Shown here one piece after another: positions 4,961 through 41,061 of a stretch of 43,533 bases of DNA (its first letter is position 1; the number at the start of each line of letters is the position of its first letter). Source of the stretch: a virus; IMG/VR virus record IMGVR_UViG_3300042691_003122, positions 1 to 43,533 of that record; one strand, written 5' to 3'. A program made the translations under genes and the position numbers. The notes under the pieces were generated by a model, which saw only the letters and a list, made by a program, of their open reading frames with translations, was not told the DNA's origin and made no database searches.

Positions 4961-5515
4961 ATGCTTAAACCGCTACCCCCTGCAAGCCTCCTTACTGAAC
5001 TCCTCTCGTATGACCCCGAAACCGGAGAGTTCATATGGAAAACCAGACGCCCCGACCATTTCACACCGACCCTTCGCCGCACTACGGAATGGCAGTGCCG
5101 GTGGTGGAATAAGCGTTTTGCTGGTACCATCGCAGGATCACGTGATCCTAACGGATACACCCTGATCCGCGTTAACGGTGTGGACTACCGCGCGCATAGA
5201 CTGGCTTGGGTTATGACCTACAACACCGAGCTTGAGTTTATCGACCACATCAACGGAGACCGTAGCGATAACCGCATTACCAATCTCCGATCTGTTTCGC
5301 ATAGTGGGAATACCAAGAACGCAAAACGCCGAGGCGATAATCTATCCGGTATGACCGGAGTCAGCTTCTTCCGACCCAAAGGGACGTGGCGGGCACGGAT
5401 CAACCACAATGGTGAGACGATTCTACTCGGGTATTTCCGAACATACGAAGAGGCAGTGGCCGCACGTAAAGCTGCCGAAAAAATCTACGAGTACCATGAG
5501 AACCACGGGCGCTAG
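4961..5515 (+). CDS. HNH homing-type endonuclease with AP2 DNA-binding domain, 184 aa
   Basis: Free-standing endonuclease, likely a selfish element. The HNH_3-type core is at residues ~73-122: YRAHRLAW (His79), FIDHINGDRSDN (Asp95, His96, Asn98, Asn103), ITNLR and an Asn-rich SGNTKNAKRR. It is followed by an AP2-like domain at ~130-178 (SGMTGVSFF, WRARI, LGYFRTYEEAVAAR, EKIYEYHE). All expected HNH residues are present, so it looks intact. It is encoded on the plus strand inside the minus-strand packaging cluster, between the small-subunit region and large terminase, which suggests insertion. Its TAG stop overlaps the stop of the converging minus-strand gene in a shared CTAG. The SD is weak (GGTGATGAT). 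Confidence 0.9.
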   Translation: MLKPLPPASLLTELLSYDPETGEFIWKTRRPDHFTPTLRRTTEWQCRWWNKRFAGTIAGSRDPNGYTLIRVNGVDYRAHRLAWVMTYNTELEFIDHINGDRSDNRITNLRSVSHSGNTKNAKRRGDNLSGMTGVSFFRPKGTWRARINHNGETILLGYFRTYEEAVAARKAAEKIYEYHENHGR

Positions 5516-23703: not shown

Positions 23704-26556
23704 ATGGACACTATAACATTTTTCGGGAAGGTGCTGCCATCTGAAGGTGTGTACGTCAGCGCACAACTGACGCCACGAGGGATGATCCACAAGTTCTACG
23801 ACTCAGTGGAAGACCTGACTCAGGCAGTACAATCCATCAGCCAGCGCGGCGGCAACGTGTACTATGCCGTCTCGTCAATGCAGGACAACTCAGAGCGCAG
23901 CCAGCGCAACACCCACCTTACCCAGACCCTGTTCATCGACGTGGACTGTGGCTCGGACAAACCCTATCCCACTTGGAAAGAAGGGCTGCTCGCCCTCAGC
24001 CAGTTCATATCCGCACTCCAGCTACCCAAGCCCATGATCATTCATTCGGGCAACGGGCTGCATGTGTATTGGATACTGTCCGAAGCGCTTGCGCCTGCGC
24101 AGTGGGGACCATTGGGTCTCGCACTCAAGGCAGCAGCCAAGGCGCATGGGTTCGAGATCGACATGAGCGTGCCGGGTGACAGCGCCCGATTGCTCCGCCC
24201 TGTAGGGACCATCAACCCGAAAGGCGGTGCCGAGGTCAGGCTACTGCTCGATGCACCTGCGGTGGATGCCGATGCGATGCGGGCCGCGCTCAGTGGTTTT
24301 GTTGTACAGACAGCGATGCCGACTCACTTCGGAGTTCCAACACGTACCAGTGCGTTATCACAAGCTCTCGCTGTCGATGCAGAGTTTCCTGACGCCAACC
24401 CGGATGCCGTTGCCTCCAAGTGCCAGCAGATCGCATGGGGTGTGGAGAACCAAGCCGAAGTCTCTGAGCCGTTCTGGTACGCCATGCTGGGCGTTGCCGC
24501 CTACTGCATCGACTCGGAGAACACCGCTGTCGCTTGGTCGAGCAAGCACCCTGACTACGACTACACCAAGACTATGCGCAAGATGGCGCACTGGAAGCAG
24601 TCGGTCACCGGACCAGCCACCTGCAAGAAGTTCATGGAAGAGCGCCCCGCAGGATGCAGGGGGTGTAAGTTCGCAGGTAAGATCACAGCACCCACCCAGA
24701 TCGGCGCACAGTTCAGCACCGTAGAGATATCGGAAGCCGCACCGGACAAGGTCGGTGCCTCCGTACCGCTACCACGCAGCTACAAGCGCACTGCCTCGGG
24801 CATCAAGCAGACTGTGGATGGCACTGACATCGACATCTGCCCGTTCGATATCTACCCCGTTGGCTACGGCAGGGACGAGTCGCTTGGGTATGAGACCGTC
24901 CGCTACCACTGGGATCGTAAGCACGCAGGCTGGCAGGAACTGACGCTGCGCCAAGCATTCCTCACGGACACACGTCTGCGTGAGTTCACAACTGCCGTCG
25001 CTGATCAGGGGATCGTCCTCAAGACAGAGAAGCAAACCGCGAGTTTCCAGTTTATGCTACGTTCGTACATGGACAAGCTGCGCGAGATGCGCGCGATGAC
25101 CAACCTCTATAACAGCATGGGGTGGAAGGACGAGTACAGGCAGTTCGTCCATGGCAACGCGCTCTACCGCCGCCACGATGATGGCACCGTCAGCAGGGAG
25201 AACATCACTCTCTCGACCAGCAGCCAGCGCCTTGGCGGGGAACTCTATGGTACATCTGGCAGCGAGCAGGAGTGGATCAACTTCACCTCCGTGTTGCAGG
25301 CAGCCAATATGCCAGCCCACATGTTTGCGCTTGGCTTCAGCCTCGCCACGCCGCTGATCGAACTGACCGGGCTTAATGGTCTGACCCTGTCGCTGTGCGG
25401 TCAGACTGGTACGGGTAAGACGCTGGGCCAACTCTGGCAGCAGTCGCTGTGGGGTGATCCGCAGAAGCTGCACTTCGCAGCCAAGTTCACGATGAACAGT
25501 CTGTACAACCGGCTTGGGTTCTACTGCAACCTACCGATGACCATCGACGAAGCGACCGTGGTTTCTGACAAGGAGATCGGTGACTTCCTCTACATGGTGA
25601 CGCAGGGCCGGGACAAGGCACGCCTCAACCGCAGTGCTGAGGAGCGGGAGACCAAGCGGTGGGCTACCGGTGTGACCATCTCTACCAACATCCCTTGGTC
25701 CACCAAGCTGACTGCCATGAATAGCGCGACGGATGCACAGTTGATGCGCTTGCTGGAAGTCACGGTCGATCCACACCCGGTATTCGCTGACGGTACGTCA
25801 GGTGGCCGCAAGATTTTCCAGTTCATCACCACCAACTATGGCTGGGTCGGTCCTCGGTTCATCGAATATCTGCTGGCGATGGGGCCGCTGGCTATCAAGG
25901 AGATGATCGACGAGGCGATGAACACGTTCCCACAGAGATATCCTGCTGAGTTCAGCGGTGAAGAACGCTATTGGGAGATCGCCATTGTCCTGACCGATCT
26001 GGCTCTGCGGATCGCCAAGGAACAGAACTGGATCAAGTTCGATCCGGCGATTGCCATCAACTGGGTGCTGGGTCAGACCGGAACCATCCGGCAGAACATC
26101 GTCTCCAACAAGATGGACAGCTTCGACATCCTATCGGAGTACCTCAACGACAACACCCGTCTGGCCCTCACGGTCATGCACACCTACGGGCAGCAGCCAG
26201 CCCCACTGTTCCAGCGGATGCCTCAAGGTGAAGTGCGGATACGCTATGACGTGCGGCGCAACCAGCCGAACGGGGTGTTTGACCATGGCACTGTGACGCT
26301 GGACCGGACCCACTTCCGTAGCTGGCTGTCGTCTCGTAACGTGGACTATCGCCAGATCACCCGAGACCTAGAGTCGGAGAACATCCTGCTCTCGGTCAAG
26401 AACAACAAGGCGTATCTGGGTAAGGGAACCGACATCAAGACCGGCCAGTCCTACGTCGTCCAGATCAACCTGTGCCACCCGAGACTGCGTGGTATCCTTG
26501 ATGAAGCCGATCAAGCCTACGACACGCAAGTGCTCGGGCAGTTGAAAGTGGTCTAG
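23704..26556 (+). CDS. Primase-helicase (AEP-like primase plus P-loop helicase), 950 aa
   Basis: Replicative primase-helicase. The N-terminal AEP/PrimPol-like part has FIDVDCGSD (~77-85, metal-binding Asp pair), HSGNGLHVYW (~114-123, the sGxH motif) and SARLLRPVGTINPKGG (~160). A Cys motif TCKKFMEERPAGCRGC (~305-321) could bind zinc. The C-terminal helicase has Walker A GQTGTGKT at 566-573 and Walker B MTIDEATV (~612-619), followed by an Arg-rich SAEERETKRWATG and ISTNIPW sensor-like segment; the layout is like DUF927-type phage helicases. It ends convergently with the giant late gene, sharing CTAG. Confidence 0.85.
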   Translation: MDTITFFGKVLPSEGVYVSAQLTPRGMIHKFYDSVEDLTQAVQSISQRGGNVYYAVSSMQDNSERSQRNTHLTQTLFIDVDCGSDKPYPTWKEGLLALSQFISALQLPKPMIIHSGNGLHVYWILSEALAPAQWGPLGLALKAAAKAHGFEIDMSVPGDSARLLRPVGTINPKGGAEVRLLLDAPAVDADAMRAALSGFVVQTAMPTHFGVPTRTSALSQALAVDAEFPDANPDAVASKCQQIAWGVENQAEVSEPFWYAMLGVAAYCIDSENTAVAWSSKHPDYDYTKTMRKMAHWKQSVTGPATCKKFMEERPAGCRGCKFAGKITAPTQIGAQFSTVEISEAAPDKVGASVPLPRSYKRTASGIKQTVDGTDIDICPFDIYPVGYGRDESLGYETVRYHWDRKHAGWQELTLRQAFLTDTRLREFTTAVADQGIVLKTEKQTASFQFMLRSYMDKLREMRAMTNLYNSMGWKDEYRQFVHGNALYRRHDDGTVSRENITLSTSSQRLGGELYGTSGSEQEWINFTSVLQAANMPAHMFALGFSLATPLIELTGLNGLTLSLCGQTGTGKTLGQLWQQSLWGDPQKLHFAAKFTMNSLYNRLGFYCNLPMTIDEATVVSDKEIGDFLYMVTQGRDKARLNRSAEERETKRWATGVTISTNIPWSTKLTAMNSATDAQLMRLLEVTVDPHPVFADGTSGGRKIFQFITTNYGWVGPRFIEYLLAMGPLAIKEMIDEAMNTFPQRYPAEFSGEERYWEIAIVLTDLALRIAKEQNWIKFDPAIAINWVLGQTGTIRQNIVSNKMDSFDILSEYLNDNTRLALTVMHTYGQQPAPLFQRMPQGEVRIRYDVRRNQPNGVFDHGTVTLDRTHFRSWLSSRNVDYRQITRDLESENILLSVKNNKAYLGKGTDIKTGQSYVVQINLCHPRLRGILDEADQAYDTQVLGQLKVV

Positions 26557-29500
26557 TACGAGAGGGTGTCGAACGCCCTCTCGATATCTTCGCGGCCAGC
26601 CTTGGGGACAGTACGCAGGGTGCGCTCCTTGGCCGGTCGCTGGGCTTCCTTGAGTGCGCGCATGGACCGGCGACGGAAGTCGGCAATCTCAAGCCCAGTA
26701 CCCTTGGCTCCCTTGTTCCAGCTATCCACTGCCTGCTCGATCTCACGGGCGCGGTCAGCGTTACCCTCCATCGTGGCCTTGATCCAAGCCTGACGGAAAC
26801 CTGCGACAACATCTCTCTGGTAGTCTGTCACGCGGGTAGCGACGCGAATCGCACTGTACTGCTGGGCCGCTTCGCTGGGATAGAACCCAAGCAGACGAGC
26901 AGCGATAACCCCAGCGTGGGCATCATCAGCCACGACATAACCACGACGATCCACGATGGCGTCAGACTTGGCATAGGCAACAGCGTCACCGGCTGCGCGG
27001 AGCATGGTCACTGGAGCCTCACGAGCCACATCGACCAACTGGATACGGTCAGAGAACGGTACCCGCATCAGGTCAGCAAAGAACTGGGCCGAGCCAATCA
27101 GGGCTGAAGGTGCAGGACCAGCGATGTCGGTAAGCTCACGGCCTACGTCCGCACCAGACAGGAGGATACCCGTGCCGGGGAAGACATTCCCCAGCGAGAC
27201 ACGGCCAGCGATGTCGGCAGGGACCGCCGAGTTGACCACACCTTGCAGGAAGTAGGGCGACATGCCGGGGAAGACACCATCGACGAACTTGGCGATCTCC
27301 ATGCGAATGCTGCCGACCTTGAACCCGAGAGCCTGAGCCAGCGTGTCGATCAGGTCTTCGAGGTCTTCAGCGAAGGGCAGGCCCTGCAAACCAGAGAGCA
27401 TCCACAGAGATGCCAGCATGGCGATCTTGCCGCCCCGCGACATGTTCGAGAACAACTGGATCGAGGTAGTCGGGAAGACCTTGTACATGTACAGGAACGA
27501 CTGGATACCCGAACGCCATGCCGGGGGGCGGTTAAGCACCGAGTACTCGCCCATGGTCAGGCTCAGGGCATCGACGGCAAAGCGGCGCGCTGCCTCTTTG
27601 GCCTTGGTCACGCTGCGACCACCAGCAATCTGGCGCTCATACTCAAGTCGATAGGCAGTGAGACCAAGCGTGCGGCGAGAAGCCTGCTCAGTCAGGTTGA
27701 ACGGCAGCATCCACCCGTCGATGAACTTGCGTGCAAAGCCCGACGATATCTGACCGCGAGCCGTGTTGATCAGCGCGTTGGTCTGCGCCGGGATCATGGC
27801 ACCCTCACGGATTTCGCGAGCGATGAACTCAGCCTCATGTGCTGCCAGCCCGTACTTGGTCTGGAGGTCCCTGCTCTTGGCCACGGCGTCGTAGAACTCA
27901 GCCGTGTTGGCCTTCATGTTAGTAATGCCCAGCGCACCGACTTGCTTGGCCGCGATGTGGAACTGAGCAACCGAAGGACCAAGACCGAAGCCACCGCCGA
28001 AGCCATTGCGGGGATTGTAGCTGGCAAGGAATGGCAGACCGTTGGTGTAGGCGCTGATCAGGTTGAGCGCACCAGTGGCGATAGAACCGCCAAGCTGCAT
28101 GATGCTGGTGGCCGCACGAACCCGCGAGACAACCTCGCCGCTTTCGAAGTTCGACTCGGTTACATCACGGTTCTCATCGAGGAACGATACCGTGCGCGAG
28201 GCTTCGTTGTAGAACTGGTTGGTCCGCTTCGGCTTACCCTTCGGGTTGGTCTGCTCGTACATGTACTTGTAACGAGCGTACTCACGCTCTGCGATGGCGC
28301 GCTCTTCCGCAGACAAGTTGGTGTTTTCAGCCGCAGCCTTGAGGTCGGCCAGCAGTTGGGCATCACCATTCCACAGACGCTGCGTGGACTCCATCGACAG
28401 GTTCATAAGCTCGCCCAACTGCGGACGCATGATCGTCTTGGAGATGGTCGAAGCACGCGAGTCTACATGGCGGGAGATCGCCTTGATGGCATCCGGGTCA
28501 GCGCCCGGAGTGAAGGCGCGCAGCAGGCGGTTACGTGCCGAACTGTTCTGCCGGGTCAGGGCAGTGACCACACGCTCAACTTCCTTCGGGGTCAGGACGA
28601 TATCAAGCTGGCGCAGGCCATACACAAACTCGTTGAGGTTCAGTTCCGGAGGGCCAGCGATGGCGTCGAGCGCCGTCTCGGGGACGGCCCGGAAGACCAC
28701 GGTCTGTTTGGTATACTCACCGGCATCCGGACTATAGGCATCGACCTCGTAGGTCTTGTCCTTGAAGATGTCATTGATGCCAGCGGCGATCTGCTGTGCC
28801 TCGCTCTGCTTTTCCACCTGCGAGTAGATAAGCTGCTCGCGATAGGCGTCAGCCAGACGAACGACCTTACCCGTGCGGGGATTGACCGCTTCGACACGGA
28901 CTTGGAACTGACCCTCACGCAGCAACGGGGTGTAGCCAGTGGCCAGCGTGCGCCGGGTGTAGAGGTCAGCGTCAGCGTTCGACACTTCCAGCATCAGGAT
29001 TTGCTTGACCCGGTTCTGGATGGTGAACTTGTTGTCGGCCCCGATCTTCAAACGAGCCTTAAACTCACGCAGCTTGGCGACCATATCATCAGCCGCCCTG
29101 CCCTCGAAGAACCGCGCAACCTCAGCAAAGTCCCGATCCTGACCAAGCGTCAGCGCCTTGTTGATGGCCACGACAAAGTCGTTACCGTTCTGCATGGCTT
29201 CAGCATTGAGCTTGGGATAGCCGCGCTCGTCGAAGGTGATGTCCGCTGTGTAGAGATCGTTGTACGTCTTGATGATGCGGCGCAGCAGATCACGCTCCGC
29301 GTTGGTCAGGCGCTTGTTCTCGACTAGTTCATCGAACTGCTTGAACGCGATCTTCTGGTCTTCGAACAGGCTCTGATAGCGGGCACGCAGAAGCTGAAGC
29401 TCCACGTCATTGACCGTCTCACGCAGGCTGACATACCCACGCCACTCGACGCTTTCTCTGGTCAGGCCGGGGATACCAGCAAAGCGCTCTTCGCGCGTGG

Positions 29501-32500
29501 TTCCGTCCGGAAGCTGGACCTCGTAGGTAAATCCATCGCGTGCCTGTTCGAAGGTGACCATGCCCTGCTTGATGAGCTTGTCGATCTCCGACTGGTTGGG
29601 GACCAGTTCGCCGTCCCTGAACTCATAGAGCGGAGGACCCTTGAGGTCCCGCAGGCTCTTGACCTTGCCGACAGCAAACCGCTGGGCGGCATACATCAGT
29701 TTGTTGATCGAGTCGGTCTGCTCCTCGGTCACCCCGAAGTACTTGCCGAACACGGCGACGTTAAACACTTCGGCGTTGCGCTCGTTGCTGGACACCCGGA
29801 TGCTGGACGTAAGGTCACGCGCCGCTTCGAGGATTTCCTCCAGTCGGTTAAGGCCGGGGTTAAGGCGCGAACGGAAGTTGGCGAGACTCAGGAACTCAGC
29901 CTTGAATCGGTCGAAGCGGTCGGTACTGTTGCCGACAGCGCCTTTCACAGTGGTCCACGCCTGCTCCCAGTTCAGCGGAGCGTTGGCGAGGTTATCCCGC
30001 ATCAGTTCAGCCGCACGGTTGTCTGCGTAGATATCTCCCACTGTGCTGAACCGTCCAGTGGACGCATAGCCCTTGCCATATTCCACGTCTTGCAGGTCAC
30101 CGAAGACCTTGGCCGTGTCGAACATGCTCGACTTGCCACTGCGGACGTATGCGCGTGAGTGCTTCAGGACGTAGCGCACCATCTCATCGCCGAACTTGAT
30201 GCCCAGCTTGTTGAGCGCGCCCTTGACGGCGTTCCAGACCCGAGCCACTACACTGGTATCGAGGACCGCAGCAAAGTCAGAGAGGTACTCTTCGACCGCT
30301 TCAGCCTTGGACTGACCATTGGCCACAGCGATATCCACATCGCTCCGGATTGCGGGGCTGGCCTTGTAGATCGCCTCCATGGCGGCGTTGAACTTGTTCG
30401 CCGGGATGATCCCGCGCAGACCGAAGTGACCAAGGGTTTCGTGGGCCAGCACGAAGTTGAGATGCTGCTGGTTGGCGATCCGGTCCGTGAAGATTACCAC
30501 GTTACCATCGCCGAACGAGTAACCCGCAGCCAGTGCGGTATCGAAGTCACCCTCGGGGCGGGCAGCCACAGCCTTGCGGTAGAGCGCCGGGTTCTTCGCC
30601 TTCATGTCCGCTTGGTTCTTGAACACCGCGACCTTGGGCTTGGTTGCCAGCTTCGATACGAACCGCGAGACGGCCATACGCAGCTTACCCACAGCAGAGT
30701 CAGCGCGATCAGGCTGGTTGAACGAGGCCAGAGCGAAGCGGCCTTCGTCTTCCTTCTTGGCGGACGGTGTGAAGAGGTCACCGACCTTGTCGAACTTGGC
30801 CTCGCCGTCTTCGGTGAAGTAGTCCTTCAGCGGGTAGCCATTGACCAGTGTGTCGCGGTCAGCCTCGTTGGTCTCAGCGTAGAGGTCCTCAAGCGCAAAC
30901 GGCAGGCTCGGGTATTCTTCCTTGGACATCGACGACTGCGAGAAGGTGAACGGACGCTCAAGGTTGAATACCTTCAGGTTGCTCGCCAGCAGCGCAGCCA
31001 GCTTGGACAGAGCCGTATCGGTAAGGACAGGCTTGCTCTCGTAGGTCGCCTTCTTGGTAACAGCGGGTTGCGGCTCAACCGCAAACATTTCTTCGGCCTG
31101 CGCCCGGAGTGCGTCGTCCTTGATCTTACCGAGGTTGGTGACCTTGTCCTTCGCCTTGGCCGGGAACGCCTTGGTCAGATCGTTGTCCAGCATGAACTGG
31201 AACCACGGACCATCAGCCGGGAGGGTGTCCTCGCGCAGCATGATATCGCGGAACGCCTTGGCCAGCGAGGGCTGGTGCCACTTGGAGATCGGTCCCTTGA
31301 GGAACTCACGCGCCTTGGTCTGGATCGCCTTGCGGCCTTCGACAGTGCCAGTGCTCAGACGCTCAAAGAACGCAAGCTCCAAGATGTCGTAGTATGCGTC
31401 ACGCACGTCGTCGCGGTTCGTCTTCGAGGTAGCTTCCTCAACGAACGTAATAGCGTCATCAATACGCGCAGCATCAGTCATCTCACCGCGAGCTACCGCA
31501 GGGGGAGGCGCAGCCTTCAGAACTTGAACAGCTTCTCGCGGTTGCTTCTGAACAGGTGCGGCTGCTTTTTCGGCTTTGACCGCTGGCTTGGCGACAGGCT
31601 TTCCGGAAGCCGCTGCAACTGCTCGTCCGACAGGCCGCTTGAGAGCTTCTCCGCGAGTTGCGGGTTGCTGCGCTGTAGGAACCGTAGCTGCTTTTGGCTT
31701 TTTAAGACCACTAGGTTTACCTCCTGTTGGCGGGGTGGGTGTAGGCGTGATGGCACCAGTGACCACTGTGCGCGGTGGGGTGCGAGTCAGACGTGCTTCG
31801 TTCTCGGCCTGTACCAGTTCGGTACGGATTTGCCGGAGATCATCGCGGGTAAGCTCACCAGCCTGCGCCATGTTGAGCGCATCGATCCACTGGTTCTGGA
31901 TTTCGGGGAGGAAGTTGGCAAACGGCTTGGGCCGACCGCGACCGGCAAGGGCGCGCCATTCCTCAGCAGCCTGTGCAGGGGTAGTACCAAACTCAGGTTC
32001 GGGCAAAAGCGTGCCCTCAGTACCGACCACTTCGAGGAACGGCTGCGACTCAGCAAGACGCTGCTGGAGGGTATTGAGACCCGTTACAGGAACACGCGCA
32101 GCCTGTGCTTGCTCGAACTGGGCCTGCCGCTGCGCGGCCATCTGCGCTTCCTGCTCACGCTGCTGAAGCGCCCGAAGCACAGGGTTGTCGGCGAGAGTCC
32201 CAGTGGGGGCAGCTTCGGGCTGGGCATAGCGGAACGGAGCCAGTCCGGTCTCGAACGGCAGGACATCTTGGATTTCGGTGGTCGGTGCAACCGGAGCCAC
32301 GCCAGTGGCGAAGGGTAATTCAAGCTGAGGCGAGGGACCTTCTGGCGCAACACCGAGATCAACACCCTCAAACATCTCCGGCTGCGTCGGAACCGCAGTT
32401 GGCGCGATAGGAGTCGGAGCGACACCGCCGCCACCGATAAGGGGAAGTTCACCTTGCTCCGGACCATAATAAGGTAGCCGCTTGAGCGGAGCCGGAAGTT

Positions 32501-33860
32501 GTTTAGGCGGCGCAGGCAACGCCAAAGGTTCGGGGTTAGCACCGCCCAGCAGATCAGCGGGTTTCTTACCCTTGAGGTTGGCAACGCCGCCGAGCGGGGC
32601 ACCAATGGCTGCACCGGCAGCGAAGGACTCGATAAGCCGCTGGACGTTCTCAGGCTTGCTCAGGTCCTGATCGGAGAGACCAAGGAGTAGGGCTTCCTGC
32701 CCGAGTTCCGTAGCACCTTCAGCCGCGCCACCGATTGCACCGCCCACAGCACCACGGCGCAGGAGTTCAGCACCGCGACGAGGCAGAGAAGTGCCAGCAG
32801 CCATAGCCCGAGGAGCGGCAACGCCGCCAAGAACGCGACCAGCCAGCAGGAACTCAGGAAGTGTTTCGAGCGCAGCATAAGGCAAGGACCCCAAGAGCGC
32901 GGTCATCCGCGCATTGACATCGTCCGGGTCGGCACCCTGCTCGCGCATCTCGCCGTAGATATCTGCCGTACCCGTAGCGATGTTATTCGCGTAGGAAGCA
33001 ACAGTGGCACCAGCGATACCAGCCGCGCTCCGTAGTATCTTGCGTTCAGCAGCGTCGAGGACTTCACCCGCAGCCTGCTTGCGCGCTGCGGCAAGGACCG
33101 CTTGCTTGAACGAGGACTTACCCGCCAGACCAGCGATGGCACCCCCAAGCGTACCAAGACCCGGACCACCGGAGAGAGTGCCCGCAGTGGCACCGGCAGC
33201 AGCGACAGCGATGGACTCCAGCAGGTTGGGACCCTGCGCACCGAGGTTGGCTACGAACCATTCGATGGCGTCACGGCCAGACTCGATATCGCTGAACTGA
33301 CGCTCGTAGGGTGCAGTCTGCCGAAGGTCTTCCATCTGCTGGGCGACAATCCGCCCGCCAGTTTCTTCAGCGCCTAGGAACTGGAGACCACGACCAGCCA
33401 GAAGCTGGCTTACATCGACACCGCGACCGAACCCCTTGGAGAACAGCGTGCCGAGGCTAGGTTCCTTGATCCCTTGGAGGTAGCCAGCATAAGCCTGCGG
33501 GTCCACGGGGACCCAATCGCCAGTGGGCAGCGCCGTACCCGGCTGACCCAAGAGGGCTTCGCTCTCGATGGCGCTCTGCGCATCGTCCTTGGAGAACGTG
33601 CGACCCTGCACAAAGAACTCGCCACGAGACGGGCTGAACGCGATAGTCGGCTGTGCCTGTTGTACCGGAGGGGGTGCAATCTCGGGGACACGAACCTGCG
33701 CACGGGCAGCTTCGCCCATGGCGTTAATCGAAGCCACGCTCTGCTGGAGCGCGTCAAGGCCGGTGACCTTGGTGGGTGTACGGTTGACCAGAGGATTAAG
33801 GTCAGAGCCACCCGCCGGAGCCGCCAACGGGTTAAGGATCGACAGACCGGCCTGAGCCAT
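26553..33860 (-). CDS. Giant polyvalent virion protein with metallopeptidase motif, 2435 aa
   Basis: Starts MAQAGLSILNPLAAPAGG with GGAGG upstream. Probably an ejected internal virion protein. A glycine-zipper-like hydrophobic segment lies at ~215-255 (AVAAAGATAGTLSGGPG and GAIAGLAGK), useful for membrane passage. A long Pro/Ala-rich low-complexity region lies at ~450-800. HETLGHFG at 1140-1147 is an HExxH-type zinc metallopeptidase motif, with EEYLSDFA downstream. Long helical regions follow; the C-terminal ~600 residues resemble the large polyvalent or PLxRFG-type proteins of podovirus-like phages. No RNA polymerase motifs of the N4 type were recognised. Expressed with the internal-virion genes upstream. 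Confidence 0.8.
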   Translation of the reverse strand: MAQAGLSILNPLAAPAGGSDLNPLVNRTPTKVTGLDALQQSVASINAMGEAARAQVRVPEIAPPPVQQAQPTIAFSPSRGEFFVQGRTFSKDDAQSAIESEALLGQPGTALPTGDWVPVDPQAYAGYLQGIKEPSLGTLFSKGFGRGVDVSQLLAGRGLQFLGAEETGGRIVAQQMEDLRQTAPYERQFSDIESGRDAIEWFVANLGAQGPNLLESIAVAAAGATAGTLSGGPGLGTLGGAIAGLAGKSSFKQAVLAAARKQAAGEVLDAAERKILRSAAGIAGATVASYANNIATGTADIYGEMREQGADPDDVNARMTALLGSLPYAALETLPEFLLAGRVLGGVAAPRAMAAGTSLPRRGAELLRRGAVGGAIGGAAEGATELGQEALLLGLSDQDLSKPENVQRLIESFAAGAAIGAPLGGVANLKGKKPADLLGGANPEPLALPAPPKQLPAPLKRLPYYGPEQGELPLIGGGGVAPTPIAPTAVPTQPEMFEGVDLGVAPEGPSPQLELPFATGVAPVAPTTEIQDVLPFETGLAPFRYAQPEAAPTGTLADNPVLRALQQREQEAQMAAQRQAQFEQAQAARVPVTGLNTLQQRLAESQPFLEVVGTEGTLLPEPEFGTTPAQAAEEWRALAGRGRPKPFANFLPEIQNQWIDALNMAQAGELTRDDLRQIRTELVQAENEARLTRTPPRTVVTGAITPTPTPPTGGKPSGLKKPKAATVPTAQQPATRGEALKRPVGRAVAAASGKPVAKPAVKAEKAAAPVQKQPREAVQVLKAAPPPAVARGEMTDAARIDDAITFVEEATSKTNRDDVRDAYYDILELAFFERLSTGTVEGRKAIQTKAREFLKGPISKWHQPSLAKAFRDIMLREDTLPADGPWFQFMLDNDLTKAFPAKAKDKVTNLGKIKDDALRAQAEEMFAVEPQPAVTKKATYESKPVLTDTALSKLAALLASNLKVFNLERPFTFSQSSMSKEEYPSLPFALEDLYAETNEADRDTLVNGYPLKDYFTEDGEAKFDKVGDLFTPSAKKEDEGRFALASFNQPDRADSAVGKLRMAVSRFVSKLATKPKVAVFKNQADMKAKNPALYRKAVAARPEGDFDTALAAGYSFGDGNVVIFTDRIANQQHLNFVLAHETLGHFGLRGIIPANKFNAAMEAIYKASPAIRSDVDIAVANGQSKAEAVEEYLSDFAAVLDTSVVARVWNAVKGALNKLGIKFGDEMVRYVLKHSRAYVRSGKSSMFDTAKVFGDLQDVEYGKGYASTGRFSTVGDIYADNRAAELMRDNLANAPLNWEQAWTTVKGAVGNSTDRFDRFKAEFLSLANFRSRLNPGLNRLEEILEAARDLTSSIRVSSNERNAEVFNVAVFGKYFGVTEEQTDSINKLMYAAQRFAVGKVKSLRDLKGPPLYEFRDGELVPNQSEIDKLIKQGMVTFEQARDGFTYEVQLPDGTTREERFAGIPGLTRESVEWRGYVSLRETVNDVELQLLRARYQSLFEDQKIAFKQFDELVENKRLTNAERDLLRRIIKTYNDLYTADITFDERGYPKLNAEAMQNGNDFVVAINKALTLGQDRDFAEVARFFEGRAADDMVAKLREFKARLKIGADNKFTIQNRVKQILMLEVSNADADLYTRRTLATGYTPLLREGQFQVRVEAVNPRTGKVVRLADAYREQLIYSQVEKQSEAQQIAAGINDIFKDKTYEVDAYSPDAGEYTKQTVVFRAVPETALDAIAGPPELNLNEFVYGLRQLDIVLTPKEVERVVTALTRQNSSARNRLLRAFTPGADPDAIKAISRHVDSRASTISKTIMRPQLGELMNLSMESTQRLWNGDAQLLADLKAAAENTNLSAEERAIAEREYARYKYMYEQTNPKGKPKRTNQFYNEASRTVSFLDENRDVTESNFESGEVVSRVRAATSIMQLGGSIATGALNLISAYTNGLPFLASYNPRNGFGGGFGLGPSVAQFHIAAKQVGALGITNMKANTAEFYDAVAKSRDLQTKYGLAAHEAEFIAREIREGAMIPAQTNALINTARGQISSGFARKFIDGWMLPFNLTEQASRRTLGLTAYRLEYERQIAGGRSVTKAKEAARRFAVDALSLTMGEYSVLNRPPAWRSGIQSFLYMYKVFPTTSIQLFSNMSRGGKIAMLASLWMLSGLQGLPFAEDLEDLIDTLAQALGFKVGSIRMEIAKFVDGVFPGMSPYFLQGVVNSAVPADIAGRVSLGNVFPGTGILLSGADVGRELTDIAGPAPSALIGSAQFFADLMRVPFSDRIQLVDVAREAPVTMLRAAGDAVAYAKSDAIVDRRGYVVADDAHAGVIAARLLGFYPSEAAQQYSAIRVATRVTDYQRDVVAGFRQAWIKATMEGNADRAREIEQAVDSWNKGAKGTGLEIADFRRRSMRALKEAQRPAKERTLRTVPKAGREDIERAFDTLSY
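26559..26583. terminator. Hairpin at the convergent operon junction
   Basis: CGAGAGGG (26559-26566) pairs with CCCTCTCG (26576-26583) around a nine-base loop. It lies just after the primase-helicase stop and inside the last codons of the giant gene, with no T-run on either side. It may act as a weak bidirectional or factor-dependent terminator; otherwise the two operons collide. Confidence 0.4.
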
Positions 33861-33862
33861 TT

Positions 33863-35932
33863 TTATCCTCCAGTACCAACACCTACAGTGCGCTGCGGCA
33901 GACCTGTGATGGGACGAGCGGACGGACCGGATACCATACCTTCAGGCGCGCCTTCGATTTGTACACCACCCTTGTCGATAAGCAAGGTCTGACCCTGCAC
34001 CTGAAGGATCGCCTGACCACTACCATCGGGCAGCATCGTGAGCTTCCCGTTGGGGTCCATCTGCCTGACCATCTCGGTAGCCCGAGCGTTATCGCCTTCA
34101 AGGAGTTTAAGCTGGACATCAGCAGCAAACTTGGCAGCAGCCTTGGCTGCCTCCTCGGTCATGCGAAGCTGGCTCTTGAAGAACTCGGTGTTCATCTCGG
34201 CCTGTGCTTCTGCCTGCGTCGTGACATACTGCTTATCGAAGGACGACCGGGCAGCATCGATGATGGCGCTACGAGCCACGCCGCGCTGGGTTACCCGGCC
34301 ATTGACCACGACGTTGAACGTACCATCGGTCTGCGGTTGAAGCTGCACCGGCACGCCAGCATAGTCAGACCACACAGCAGCAAGGCGGCGAGGGTCGTTG
34401 GCCAATGCCAGTTCCTGTAGCCCCTGCATCCCCTGAAGGAACATGAGGCTGTTATCCAGTTCAACCACTTTGAGGCGGGCAGCCGTGAACTCGTTCCCCA
34501 TGCCAGCGCGGCGATACATGTCGGCCATACGCGCCAGTTCCTGACGGTTCTGCATGGCGATCCGCACATCGCGCGAAGTTGCGTTGGGGTTGGCAAGATA
34601 GAAGTTCGACGGATCGATGCGGACCGGCACCGGGGTTGCTTGGGCAGCAGCCATCTGAGGGCCGACACCGGCACCCCCTGCGGGAGCAGCACCACCCATC
34701 TTGCCAGCGGCCCACTCAGCCACCTGACCGACCGTCTTACCACGAAGGACAGTCGGGTTGGCCTTGATCGCACTAGCGAAACCGGGAAGCTGCTCGACCG
34801 GAGTATTTGCGTCGGCGTTCAGCAACGTCTGCGCACCCTTGGCACCAAGGAAGTGGGCAAGGTAGAGCGTGGCATCATTGACCGGAAGACCAGCACCAGT
34901 GAGTGCGGCAGAGTTATCCTGCGTGAGCTTCTGCATGAGACGCTCTTGCATCTCAGGGTTGGTGCGCAGCGCCCAGATGCGATCATCGCTGAGGCCCGTC
35001 TTAGGATTGAGCTTGCGGTAGGTATTGACCCACGTACCCTTGGTGAACTGGTACTTCCCAAATGCCGACGAAGCGCCAGCAAGGTTAGGTGTCTGGTATG
35101 GATTGGCTACACCGCCAGTTTCGGCACCAGCGATCTTCGCGATGGACGTGGAGAGGCCAGCAGTAGGCGCGGGAGCAGCAGCGGGAGCAGCGGGAGCAGC
35201 CGCTGGCATCTTATTATACCGCATGAGTCCCTTGAAGAACTCAACCGGGTTCTTTTGTGCGACCGACAGCATCTCCGGATTACGGCGGAAATACTCACGA
35301 GCGTTCGTAGTGCGGTACCACTGGCTGGCAGAGTCACTCTCTTCCATGCGGCGCTTCTCGGTCTGGGACACGAAAGGCTTACGGACAGTGCTGAGAGGGA
35401 CGTTGGTGGTAGTCGCTATCTGGTTGAGGGTGTTGTTCAGCCGCGTCTCGTTCTGCCCTTCGATCTGGCTACGACGGAAGTCAGAAGTCTCGGGATCAAC
35501 ACGCTTGAAGCCAGCAACGCCAGCGTTGAGGCGGTCAGGTTGCCGGGAGTCAAAGCGAGGAATGGTCACCCCGCCAAGTTTCATCACGCGAGCAGCAGGC
35601 TTCGCCGGGGCGGCAGCAGGAGCCGCAGGAGCAGCGCCGGGAGCCATGGCGGTAGGAGCAGCGGGCATAAGGCCAGCAGCGGCAGTGCGACCTGCGGGAG
35701 CAAACTCAGGTTCGGCAACACGCATCGGTGCGCCAAGGAGCAGCCCCTGCTCAGGCAGTTCAGCAACTGGGGCCTCTAGCTGGATTTGGCGAAACTGTTC
35801 CTGCCGCGCAAGTTCACCACGAGCAAGTTCTGCTTGAAGTCGCTGGAGACGACGCAGTTCGCTCTGGGTCTGGTATGTCTCAATACCTTCGCCGATCCGG
35901 CCTGCACTAGCGAGAAACGAACCAATCGCCAT
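33863..35932 (-). CDS. Internal virion protein with transglycosylase domain, 689 aa
   Basis: Residues ~258-410 form a lysozyme-like lytic transglycosylase domain: IAGAETGG (catalytic Glu271), SSAFGKYQF (288-296), a WVNTY segment and a later LYLAHFLGAKGA. This would open peptidoglycan during DNA ejection. The N-terminus is helical (RLQRLQAELARGELARQ); Ala/Pro linkers (~84-112, 243-257) separate domains, and the C-terminal ~200 residues are helical. It lies three bases upstream of the giant gene, as expected for internal core proteins. Confidence 0.8.
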   Translation of the reverse strand: MAIGSFLASAGRIGEGIETYQTQSELRRLQRLQAELARGELARQEQFRQIQLEAPVAELPEQGLLLGAPMRVAEPEFAPAGRTAAAGLMPAAPTAMAPGAAPAAPAAAPAKPAARVMKLGGVTIPRFDSRQPDRLNAGVAGFKRVDPETSDFRRSQIEGQNETRLNNTLNQIATTTNVPLSTVRKPFVSQTEKRRMEESDSASQWYRTTNAREYFRRNPEMLSVAQKNPVEFFKGLMRYNKMPAAAPAAPAAAPAPTAGLSTSIAKIAGAETGGVANPYQTPNLAGASSAFGKYQFTKGTWVNTYRKLNPKTGLSDDRIWALRTNPEMQERLMQKLTQDNSAALTGAGLPVNDATLYLAHFLGAKGAQTLLNADANTPVEQLPGFASAIKANPTVLRGKTVGQVAEWAAGKMGGAAPAGGAGVGPQMAAAQATPVPVRIDPSNFYLANPNATSRDVRIAMQNRQELARMADMYRRAGMGNEFTAARLKVVELDNSLMFLQGMQGLQELALANDPRRLAAVWSDYAGVPVQLQPQTDGTFNVVVNGRVTQRGVARSAIIDAARSSFDKQYVTTQAEAQAEMNTEFFKSQLRMTEEAAKAAAKFAADVQLKLLEGDNARATEMVRQMDPNGKLTMLPDGSGQAILQVQGQTLLIDKGGVQIEGAPEGMVSGPSARPITGLPQRTVGVGTGG

Positions 35933-38293: not shown

Positions 38294-38641
38294 TTACCCT
38301 CGCAACTGTCCGATGAGCGTATTCAGAGTTGCTCGCAGTGTAGCTACATCGTTTGCGAGCGCTTGTACATTCTTGAGTAGTTCGATGTAGTCATCCATCG
38401 CAGGGACAACAGCACCGTCCAAATTAACAGCCGCACCCTGTGCAGTAACCTGACGCATCGTCTGTGCCGGTGCCTGCGTAACAGTGACCGAAGCCTTGGT
38501 GATAGCGCGGCTGGCGTTGTCCTTCTCGCCTCGTGCACCGGTCAGGAGTTCGACGTTCTCCTTGAGCGCATTGAGCATGTAGTACTGCCAGCCCGACATC
38601 TCGGACTGCGGTGGGTTCGGAATTGCAGAGAACCTAGCCAT
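38294..38641 (-). CDS. Small structural-region protein, 115 aa
   Basis: Starts MARFSAIPNPPQSEMSGWQY at ATG 38641, one base overlapping the stop of the 806-aa gene (TGATG), with GGAGG just upstream. Helical C-terminus (DDYIELLKNVQALANDVATL) that looks like a trimeric coiled coil. Likely a small head- or tail-associated protein. No family recognised. Confidence 0.65.
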   Translation of the reverse strand: MARFSAIPNPPQSEMSGWQYYMLNALKENVELLTGARGEKDNASRAITKASVTVTQAPAQTMRQVTAQGAAVNLDGAVVPAMDDYIELLKNVQALANDVATLRATLNTLIGQLRG

Positions 38642-41061
38642 CACGCCTCCTTCAGACTGAGTGGGGTTTCGCCAAGGTGGATAGCACGAACGCGGATATC
38701 GCCGGTCACACCAACCTCGAACGTGTCAGAGCGATACCCAGTCGGTAGCCGGAAGGTATTCATGTCAGTAACCGTCGTAGTCATCAGAAGCTGCTTGTCC
38801 ACCCAGAGCTTGAACGTGATGTTATCGGCAGTGGCCCAAGGAGAAGTATCATCCTGCCATTCCTGCGATGCAGCATCCCATGTGGTGGTGACCTCTGCGA
38901 AGTCAGCGATAACCCGCGCCGCCCCGAGGTTGATCATGTCCGTAGTCTTGATGACCTTGGACTTCCACTCCTGCGTCAATGCGGGCTGGTTTAGGTTATC
39001 CCACTCATACACGTCACCGTTAGTACCGGTCACGCAGAAGAGCCGTCCCTCGATAGGATCGTACCACGAAGCAGTATACGTGAAGTCGAGGTCCACGAAC
39101 TGCCCGCCGATATTCCGATCCGGCTCAAACGCAAATCCACCAGTGGAATGCGAGGCCAGATAGGCGTCCCCGTAGAACTCGCCGACAATGGTGTTGGGGT
39201 CCAGTTCGATCCCCCATGTATCATTGTTGAAGTTCGTCCGCGTGATGATCGTTGGGCCGCTGGCCGGAGAGAACACAGCCAGACCGTCATGGGTGGGGTA
39301 GACCACCCCGTAGTTCATAGCCACGATGCCCTTGCGGTTGAGGCAGGGGTAGAGCGCGTCGATACGCTGGATGCTCATCCCGGCAGCAGGATCACTACCC
39401 GCGACAAGGTACGGATACCCCTTGGTCAGCACCAAGATCGAGCCGTTAATCGGAGCCAGACCCACGATGTCATACTCGAAGGTAATCGTATAAGCCTGCG
39501 GCCAAGCGTGCGGCACAGCAGGTTCGGTGAGGTACAGCTTGTTACCGACGAAGCCAGCGAGGATGTTGTTCTGCGCAGCGATCAAGCCCTGAAGGTCGTC
39601 AGGCGGCGCATCGTACTCGTCCGAGGTCAGGGTGTCGATCAGGTTCAGCGGATCGAAGTCATCCGTAAAGTCGTAGTTCCCGCCATCGCCCCAGTACCGG
39701 GCCGCAGTCGTAGGCGGGTCTTCCGACACATCATGATAGAGCGTACCAGCAGCCACAGTCGTGGTCGCCACATCGGCAGCGACCTGCGCATAGGTGAACG
39801 TGTAGTCGTCAGGGATATCGACAACGATGCCGCCTGTGATATCGAACGAGGCAATCGAGCATCCGCTGATCTTGAACCGATCATCAATCCCGAGGTTGTG
39901 TGGAAACTCCAGCTTGACAGTCGATACGTTGCCGGTGCGGCTGACAGTGGCCAGATCAGTGGGGAACCACAGGGTCTTCAGCCGGAAGTACTCAGTCCCC
40001 GACGAAGTCGCAAGCGTGCGGTAGAGGCGGATACCCCGAACGAAGTTGTTGCCCGTAGGCTTTGCAGTCGGGAGGTTACCGACCGTGATGGTCACGCCCT
40101 CCTTGACGAACACATCCGGTGTCGGGTCAGACGCGATGCTCTCTTCTTCCCACGGCGTATACCATGTGTAGACATACGAGCGCGACTGGGTTGGGCCACC
40201 GAGGTTAATCATGCCCCCAGCGAAGGCAGTCGTTGAGATAGCAGGGCCGGGGCTGAAGTACTCAATCGTGGATGGATCGATGACCGTCGCCTGAATGCCA
40301 GACACGTTGAACGAGGTCATGCTCAGACGGACAGTGCCGCCAGCCGTAGGGGCCACAGGGACATTGACGGTGAAGGTGTTCGGGCCAGTAACGGTAGCCG
40401 TGTAGACCCCATCAATTGCATCGCCGGACGTGAAATCCAAGGCGACCTGCGGAGTGCCAGTCAGGCCATGGCTGGCGATGGTACATGTAACCGTAGTGCC
40501 CACATAGGTGTAGGTCCCGGCCAGATAGCTGAAGCCGGTGACCGTGATGTAGGCACCTTCCTTGAGTCCGTGCGGAGCCGCAGTCGTCAAGGTCGCGGTG
40601 TTGTTGCTGTCCCGCTCATAGGTCGCAGTCGTGGCCGCTGTGAACGGCGTAACCGTGACTGACGGCATGGCCGTTGGGAGCGGCAGCCCGAGATCGTAGT
40701 AGTTGGTGGGGTATGGACCCACGCCGTCAAAGGCCAAGGTGTAGTTGCTGACCTTCGGGACGCCGTCGCCCGTATAGTAGAACCGCTGGTCCGTGATGTC
40801 CGAAGAAGTAACAATCGCGATGTCTACGTCAGTGGTCCATGACAACCAACGGTTGTCACCCAGCGGGTCCTTGAGCGCGTAGAGCGTCTTGATCGTGCCA
40901 GTGCGCCCAGTGTTACCCACAACGACAGGCTGTGGATAGGGGATCAGGTCTCCGGAGTACAGCTTCGTATTGCGCGCGATCTGTCCGGCAGTCTCCGGTA
41001 GGAGTTCCGGTGAAATCTTCGGTGCGATCCCAAAGAAGTTCGTGATCTTCACGCCAGCCAT
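38641..41061 (-). CDS. Large tail protein, nozzle-like, 806 aa
   Basis: Starts MAGVKITNFFGIAPKISPEL and continues LPETAGQIARNTKLYSGDLI. It is beta-rich throughout with many Thr/Asp/Gly turns (e.g. TYVGTTVTCTIASHGLTGTP). Length and position upstream of the internal-virion genes fit the T7 gp12-type tail nozzle, or another large tail-tube protein. No enzyme motif. The identification is by size, composition and context. Confidence 0.65.
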   Translation of the reverse strand: MAGVKITNFFGIAPKISPELLPETAGQIARNTKLYSGDLIPYPQPVVVGNTGRTGTIKTLYALKDPLGDNRWLSWTTDVDIAIVTSSDITDQRFYYTGDGVPKVSNYTLAFDGVGPYPTNYYDLGLPLPTAMPSVTVTPFTAATTATYERDSNNTATLTTAAPHGLKEGAYITVTGFSYLAGTYTYVGTTVTCTIASHGLTGTPQVALDFTSGDAIDGVYTATVTGPNTFTVNVPVAPTAGGTVRLSMTSFNVSGIQATVIDPSTIEYFSPGPAISTTAFAGGMINLGGPTQSRSYVYTWYTPWEEESIASDPTPDVFVKEGVTITVGNLPTAKPTGNNFVRGIRLYRTLATSSGTEYFRLKTLWFPTDLATVSRTGNVSTVKLEFPHNLGIDDRFKISGCSIASFDITGGIVVDIPDDYTFTYAQVAADVATTTVAAGTLYHDVSEDPPTTAARYWGDGGNYDFTDDFDPLNLIDTLTSDEYDAPPDDLQGLIAAQNNILAGFVGNKLYLTEPAVPHAWPQAYTITFEYDIVGLAPINGSILVLTKGYPYLVAGSDPAAGMSIQRIDALYPCLNRKGIVAMNYGVVYPTHDGLAVFSPASGPTIITRTNFNNDTWGIELDPNTIVGEFYGDAYLASHSTGGFAFEPDRNIGGQFVDLDFTYTASWYDPIEGRLFCVTGTNGDVYEWDNLNQPALTQEWKSKVIKTTDMINLGAARVIADFAEVTTTWDAASQEWQDDTSPWATADNITFKLWVDKQLLMTTTVTDMNTFRLPTGYRSDTFEVGVTGDIRVRAIHLGETPLSLKEA

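Follow-up and report, generated by a model that had tools for sequence, protein, structure and literature searches.

A giant phage protein with a conserved HExxxH motif and a predicted zincin-like domain that may cut its own chain

A giant gene and its conserved zinc motif

We analysed a viral DNA stretch of 43,533 nucleotides (nt; IMG/VR record IMGVR_UViG_3300042691_003122, positions 1 to 43,533; hereafter the window), and in particular a giant gene within it that encodes a protein of 2435 amino acids (aa). The initial annotation had listed this gene as one open reading frame (ORF) without naming its strand; the frame is indeed uninterrupted, and it lies on the minus strand (Table 1). Comparison of the coding sequence (CDS) with that of a close relative (L002; relatives carry L numbers) gave 541 synonymous and 126 non-synonymous codon differences, and the ORF is therefore a real protein-coding gene under purifying selection. 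The whole protein had no match among PDB sequences or in PADLOC, and its Pfam scan returned no match above the cut-off.

The sequences HETLGHFG, from residue 1140, and EEYLSDFA, from residue 1190, had been pointed out in the initial annotation and are both located in the protein. The HExxH label given to the first of them does not apply. The histidines are residues 1140 and 1145, with four residues separating them, so the motif is HExxxH; HExxH as a motif type was ruled out, the protein containing HExxxH only. From the composition of the protein, about 0.004 occurrences of HExxH or HExxxH are expected, and one is observed.

Conservation was assessed in relatives collected from three sources: 10 loci from a first IMG/VR scan, the best 80 of 153 confirmed loci from a scan of viral records with a zincin profile, and 57 loci from a scan with an N-terminal profile, two of which were already in the set. 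These make up 145 loci and 104 distinct family proteins. The alignment holds 99 relatives and the window protein; four proteins truncated at contig ends and L096, which is too short, were left out. A search of bacterial genomes with two short zincin patterns gave 63 stretches, none of which tblastn confirmed as a relative, and hence no host assignment. A tblastn search of the zincin region against named phages gave seven records at an expectation value (E) of 1 or less, the best (1e-4) being a Bacteroides phage "DarB-like" protein.

The pattern HE..GH is present in 100 of the 104 distinct proteins, the remaining four being those in which the contig ends before the motif is reached. This count answers a bias of the alignment, in which H1140, E1141, G1144 and H1145 are constant by construction because only rows with HE..GH were admitted. 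Positions free of that selection are equally well kept: A1188, E1190 and E1191 are invariant in 100 of 100 rows, and D1195 is found in 98 of 100. A second bias arises from the second viral scan, whose patterns contained AHE and EEYL, so that conservation among its rows is partly built in. It is answered by a subset of 40 rows, the window and 39 relatives found by motif-free patterns, where A1188, E1190 and E1191 are present in 40 of 40 and D1195 in 39 of 40; HE..GH itself is kept in all 39 of these relatives, each of which spans the region. The codons at the zinc-motif and EE sites vary synonymously among relatives. Judged from the composition count and from this retention, HETLGH is beyond chance. 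In the proposed site, His1140, His1145 and either Glu1190 or Glu1191 would hold the zinc, and Glu1141 would act as the general base.

Table 1. Features of the giant gene and its surroundings in the window
Feature	Position	Strand	Basis or remark
Giant-protein CDS, 2435 aa	26553..33860	minus	single uninterrupted ORF, ATG start
Shine-Dalgarno sequence GGAGG	33867..33871	minus	6 nt before ATG, within end of upstream gene
N-terminal domain, residues 1-420	32601..33860	minus	comparison with relatives
Variable stretch, residues 430-1046	30723..32573	minus	greatest length variation among relatives
Upstream GRF, residues 1040-1042	30735..30743	minus	candidate processing site
Payload slot, between residues 1046 and 1047	30720..30725	minus	empty in window; filled in L005 and L006
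Predicted zincin-like metallopeptidase domain, residues 1055-1250	30111..30698	minus	alignment, AlphaFold2, structure searches
HETLGH, HExxxH zinc motif, residues 1140-1145	30426..30443	minus	kept in relatives; codons vary synonymously
EEYLSD, residues 1190-1195	30276..30293	minus	expected third zinc ligand Glu1190 or Glu1191
Downstream GRF, residues 1269-1271	30048..30056	minus	candidate processing site
PLxRFG domain (NCBIfam NF032893, tail-700), residues 1773-2402	26655..28544	minus	128.4 bits, curated cut-off 100
Internal transglycosylase, 689 aa	33863..35932	minus	phrog_4067, E 1.1e-18, residues 263-408
Internal virion protein (phrog_511)	38641..41061	minus	upstream of giant gene, same strand
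Convergent 950-aa gene, primase/helicase-like by eye	23704..26556	plus	overlaps end of giant CDS by 4 nt

Predicted fold and domain architecture

The region around the motif was modelled with AlphaFold2 from 65 of the 100 aligned sequences, chosen to share less than 85% mutual identity. The mean predicted local distance difference test (pLDDT) score of the model is 76, with values of 81-97 in the ten-residue blocks 31-160 and of 73 in the block with Glu1190/1191. The order of the modelled elements begins with a helix and a strand, followed by two short helices and two strands; then come the HETLGH helix, a further pair of helices and, after these, the helix that bears the EE pair. Prediction by segment had been proposed with the initial annotation as a check on the zinc site; as run for this domain, it gives a zincin-like model in which the HETLGH helix precedes the helix carrying EE. 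The domain at residues 1055-1250 is thus predicted to have a zincin layout. The order of the elements agrees with that given by Iyer et al. for polyvalent metallopeptidases, in the part of their description consulted (PMC5512222), and the signature of that group (a helix, three strands, an HEXXH or HEXXXH helix and a helix with Glu) is present in the sequence and the AlphaFold2 model taken together. A search of BFVD with the model gave nine matches at E ≤ 0.001. Three carry the name "Large polyvalent protein associated domain-containing" and two the name "Type I restriction enzyme"; a further one is a MuF-type protein of phage phi191, and the other three have different names. The Pfam family PF01435 (M48) was weakly matched by 38 of the 65 members, with a best E of 0.0087 that falls below the cut-off, and the zincin alignment, when searched as a profile against the PDB, had two matches, both at chance level.

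The domain is embedded in a long chain of several parts. Residues 1-460 are 57% identical in L010, the other two thirds of which differ. L010/L128 (IMGVR_UViG_3300016667_000193) keeps the N-terminal domain, and its different remaining two thirds contain HEILGH, a diverged form of the motif, which looks as though the C-terminal part was swapped. The variable stretch that follows is Ala- and Pro-rich over residues 431-780. At its end, directly before the zincin-like domain, lies a slot in which some relatives carry additional sequence. L005 has an insert of 203 aa there that matches ART-PolyVal with an E of 1.4e-11 (L005 13208-13816). Its counterpart L004 is identical at 2417 of 2458 residues (98.3%), with 671 nt in L005 replacing 65 nt at the slot, and the two are a natural pair without and with an ADP-ribosyltransferase cassette just before the zincin. 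The insert in L006 is 342 aa long with an HG..S.GC motif (L006 13253-14278); scanned alone, it matched YkuD (L,D-transpeptidase) at an E of 0.0053 and 17.8 bits, below the cut-off of 23.4. No domain was recognised in the 244-aa insert of L008. A Pfam scan of the variable region in two sets of relatives, the first being all 38 and the second 50 of the 61 prepared, found ART-PolyVal in 1 of 38 and 0 of 50. The same linker contains MORN repeats in 3 of 38 and 2 of 50 relatives (5 of the 88 scanned). In the window protein itself Pfam recognised no second enzymatic domain, its near relatives carrying ART-PolyVal or the sub-threshold YkuD-like domain.

The C-terminus of the giant protein is a member of the PLxRFG family. 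The long helical regions noted in the initial annotation agree with a model of the last 556 residues, which are predicted to be almost wholly helical (pLDDT 82.8) and for which no convincing PDB match was obtained. The glycine zipper and hydrophobic ejection segment described in the same place did not hold up. Residues 200-260 contain three small-xxx-G-xxx-small patterns, a number reached in 942 of 2000 shuffles of the stretch, and the highest 19-residue Kyte-Doolittle mean of the protein, 1.43 at residues 2146-2164, is lower than the median maximum of 200 whole-protein shuffles (1.87). The zipper count is what chance alone gives and no stretch resembles a membrane span, and a membrane-spanning or glycine-zipper segment was accordingly rejected as a candidate.

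Genomic setting and the role of the peptidase

The giant gene sits among late and structural phage genes. It closes a minus-strand run that holds the phrog_511 protein, smaller genes and the transglycosylase, which the initial annotation had correctly placed as the next gene upstream and which matches phrog_4067. This arrangement recurs among relatives: a phrog_511 homologue lies upstream on the same strand in 44 of the 45 with room for it, and in 69 of 73 the neighbour on the opposite strand is homologous to the convergent 950-aa gene. Of 86 relatives, 54 have a tblastn match to the transglycosylase immediately upstream and 9 have one at another place, and 23 have none. At another place in the window (4961-5515, plus strand), a 184-aa ORF that resembles an HNH homing endonuclease by eye adjoins the terminase gene.

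A similar order is seen in Serratia phage Parlo and Burkholderia phage DC1, where the genes for an internal virion protein, an acyltransferase and virion proteins are followed, in the same position, by a giant annotated as "DarB-like antirestriction". Parlo gp81 shares the C-terminus of the window protein (E 1.2e-24), and the C-terminal profile also matches the giants of 8P, PalP_Y7, Mel-JY34, RHph_TM3_14A and Rollin; in this comparison the Itty13 frame was ended by the end of the record before the C-terminus. JC1 belongs to the same Bcep22-like group as DC1, and its giant gp69 was detected in CsCl-purified virions with 51 unique peptides, according to the portion of that report consulted (PMC9144972). 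From gene order, the window giant is probably a virion protein as well, which would be packaged with the internal virion proteins and sent into the host with the DNA. The opposite possibility, a protein that acts early inside the cell or a gene that is not expressed with the structural genes, appears improbable to us, as the giant gene starts 2 nt after the transglycosylase and is the last in a run to which the gene of the phrog_511 internal virion protein also belongs, and the JC1 giant gp69, which occupies the same position, is in virions (PMC9144972, in the same portion). The proposal in the initial annotation of a metallopeptidase in a probably ejected virion protein is thus supported by the conserved zinc residues, the zincin model, the BFVD matches to polyvalent proteins, the PLxRFG C-terminus and, by analogy, the genomic position shared with JC1 gp69; its observation was confirmed in part, its HExxH label was wrong and its hydrophobic segment found no support.

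The linkers on both sides of the zincin contain a short recurrent motif. GRF occurs 148 times in the 245,383 residues of 101 family proteins. In 76 of 100 proteins a copy follows the first His at a distance of 110-170 residues, compared with 1.8% in shuffled stretches, and in 26 of 101 one precedes it by 80-140 residues, compared with 1.5%. In the downstream stretch, GRY is found in 13 of the 25 listed proteins that have no GRF there. Both GRF copies of the window protein fall in AlphaFold2 segments with pLDDT below 50. GR(F/Y) in these low-confidence linkers is a candidate self-cleavage site. Among named phages, R(F/Y)S was found near the zincin motif in Parlo, DC1, Skulduggery, POI1126 and Itty13, these being counts with no chance control.

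On balance, and with modest confidence, we favour a giant polyvalent internal virion protein with an HExxxH metallopeptidase that cuts its own chain. The anatomy of the chain would be an N-terminal domain (residues 1-420), a variable linker, a slot at residue 1046, the zincin at 1055-1250 and a remainder of about 1,180 residues, the PLxRFG domain among them. The peptidase may cut in the flexible linkers on either side of itself, with the GRF copies at 1040-1042 and 1269-1271 as candidate sites, and such cleavage would free the N-terminal or payload part from the C-terminal part. Self-processing is favoured for three reasons: the zincin directly follows the payload slot, the linker motif stands on both sides of it, and the peptidase, in contrast to the payload, is shared by all motif-independently found relatives that span the region.

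The initial annotation had suggested that the peptidase may cut a host protein. In this alternative the zincin is an effector that cleaves one or more host proteins after ejection, as the conservation of the catalytic residues would allow; the corresponding chain of a sister phage holds a further effector, ART, and host targeting is one of the options proposed for polyvalent metallopeptidases in the consulted part of PMC5512222. On the other side, the zincin is found in all 39 motif-independent relatives whatever the payload, unlike the exchangeable inserts, a conserved linker motif flanks it, and nothing indicates a host substrate. We regard the effector reading as possible, if on the unlikely side, and cleavage of a host protein seems no likelier than self-processing.

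A more specific form of the self-processing model would make the zincin a self-cleaving connector that cuts at GR(F/Y)(S/A) in the disordered linkers next to it and releases any slot enzyme in the host, with the C-terminal part left behind. We put this forward tentatively and consider it unlikely as a whole. If it were true, the releasable enzymes would be the ADP-ribosyltransferase, the L,D-transpeptidase-like domain and perhaps the polymerase in N4-type relatives, and podophages would possess a general, reprogrammable mechanism of delivery and release.

Several results weigh against self-cleavage by a packaged metallopeptidase. The fold has little backing from known structures: Foldseek of the zincin model against the PDB gave a best E of 0.45, which is not significant (the first three rows, likewise not significant, are an M61 aminopeptidase twice and MATCAP), and no Pfam peptidase was above the cut-off for the 65 zincin members or for the giant protein. 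The best Z of the model in VIA-align was only 4.3. Judging from their titles, we take 32 of the best 50 VIA-align rows listed to be zincin metalloproteins of about ten families; 17 of these 32 are presumably anthrax lethal factor, many aligned outside its catalytic domain. The assignment to the virion comes from gene order, as does the argument from JC1, and the C-terminal profile did not match the giant of DC1, of JC1's group. The slot of the window protein is empty, so it has no recognised payload to release. GRF is upstream of the zincin in only 26 of 101 proteins, the GRF counts are not independent events because the family sequences are related, and a search from 300 residues before the zincin motif to 330 after it found no R(F/Y)(S/A) in Rollin, PalP_Y7, PEp14, F116 or N4, N4 being covered only from 128 residues upstream and the named phages having no chance control. 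In phage N4, moreover, the virion RNA polymerase (vRNAP, gp50) is packaged unprocessed (PMC5512222), and the recombinant protein is described with no evidence of degradation (PMC12633501), both in the parts of these sources consulted.

The N4 protein is also the basis of a further alternative, in which the zincin fold would belong to the ejection chassis, have a structural or regulatory role and perform hardly any proteolysis or none, as perhaps in N4 C1. The order of vRNAP, as described in the consulted part of PMC12633501, is an N-terminal domain, a cargo, a zincin (C1) and a large helical C2; it resembles that of the giant protein, the N4 protein carrying an RNA polymerase and a canonical HELVH instead. 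By hhalign, the zincin matched N4 C1 weakly and in register (E 0.0021, probability 13%, score 36.0), while 25 block shuffles scored at most 25.8 and the reversed profile 20.1. Besides being packaged unprocessed, vRNAP has a C-terminal domain that inhibits its polymerase (PMC5512222 and PMC12633501, as far as consulted), which would suit a chassis role. However, HMMER with the zincin profile found no match to N4-type zincins, and Glu1141, the proposed general base, is as constant as the ligands in all proteins extending into the region, although a mere scaffold would have no use for it. We consider the chassis reading doubtful. Homology of the C-terminal half to N4 C2, a likeness seen by eye, was dropped because the hhalign scores lie within the shuffled range: the last 556 residues score 20.0, with shuffles reaching 26.4, and the whole stretch from the zincin onward scores 27.5, with shuffles reaching 29.3.

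Comparison with known systems

The zinc motif invites comparison with family M49 (dipeptidyl peptidase III, DPP III), for which the consulted part of PMC5667867 gives HEXXGH followed 22-55 residues on by EEXR(K)AE(D). HETLGH has the M49 hexapeptide, and EEYLSD follows 44 residues on; its EE and D fit the second motif, of which the R/K and the A are absent. Membership in M49 was rejected on this second motif, and the likeness is probably one of motif only, and convergent. No M49 entry was among the listed Pfam, Foldseek, VIA-align and PDB-profile matches, which excludes nothing. DPP III enzymes with a pentapeptide motif exist (PMC5805324, PMC9820243, in the parts consulted), so one family can contain both five- and six-residue forms of the motif, as also seems to be the case for the family of the giant protein. 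The zincin profile clearly matched only Rollin (9.6e-11), with HEMGH, and PalP_Y7 (2.9e-5), with HELGGH; RHph_TM3_14A and Itty13 were marginal.

Most named DarB-like or PLxRFG giants (Parlo, PEp14, Skulduggery, POI1126 and the DC1/JC1 type) show the five-residue HExxH, and several are annotated as DNA methylase or helicase. A pattern count over 14 named giants gives HExxH or HExxGH in 11 of them, at a distance of 1049-1467 residues from the C-terminus; in PBC5, Atu_ph08 and douglas none was found in the searched range. The named giants vary in size, Parlo gp81 having 3764 aa, DC1 gp67 about 4650 aa and PBC5 gp21 about 2520 aa, compared with 2435 aa here. In the record of Pseudomonas phage Itty13 (NC_070969.1; L160 25574-37910), a plus-strand frame of 4112 codons with HEMFH lies opposite three annotated genes; a DarB-like match is found at the other end of the record, and the giant gene therefore seems to cross the record start and to be mis-annotated. 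Phage F116 and its relatives (37 Pseudomonas phage records) are 24-25% identical over the C-terminal ~520 residues, to which their likeness to the giant protein is confined; these records are partly annotated as "structural protein" or "PLxRFG domain-containing protein".

The window protein appears to be a further member, from an uncultured family, of the described polyvalent class of phage proteins. Like the polyvalent HEXXXH metallopeptidases of Iyer et al. (2017), it is a giant chain encoded among late genes, with HEXXXH and a downstream Glu helix, and ART-PolyVal is likewise found in a sister protein; unlike them, it has no recognised second enzymatic domain of its own. For that class, delivery with the DNA and either autoprocessing or host targeting were proposed and the role of the metallopeptidases was left open, in the part of the description consulted (PMC5512222). 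No paper on peptidase activity of the giant-protein family was among the literature matches listed. Neither the GR(F/Y) linker motif nor the two near-identical proteins that differ by ART are among the contents of PMC5512222 that were consulted. They offer two handles on the role of the peptidase, a pair 98% identical that differs by a cassette just before it and a motif in the linkers on both sides, and together they make the self-release model testable.

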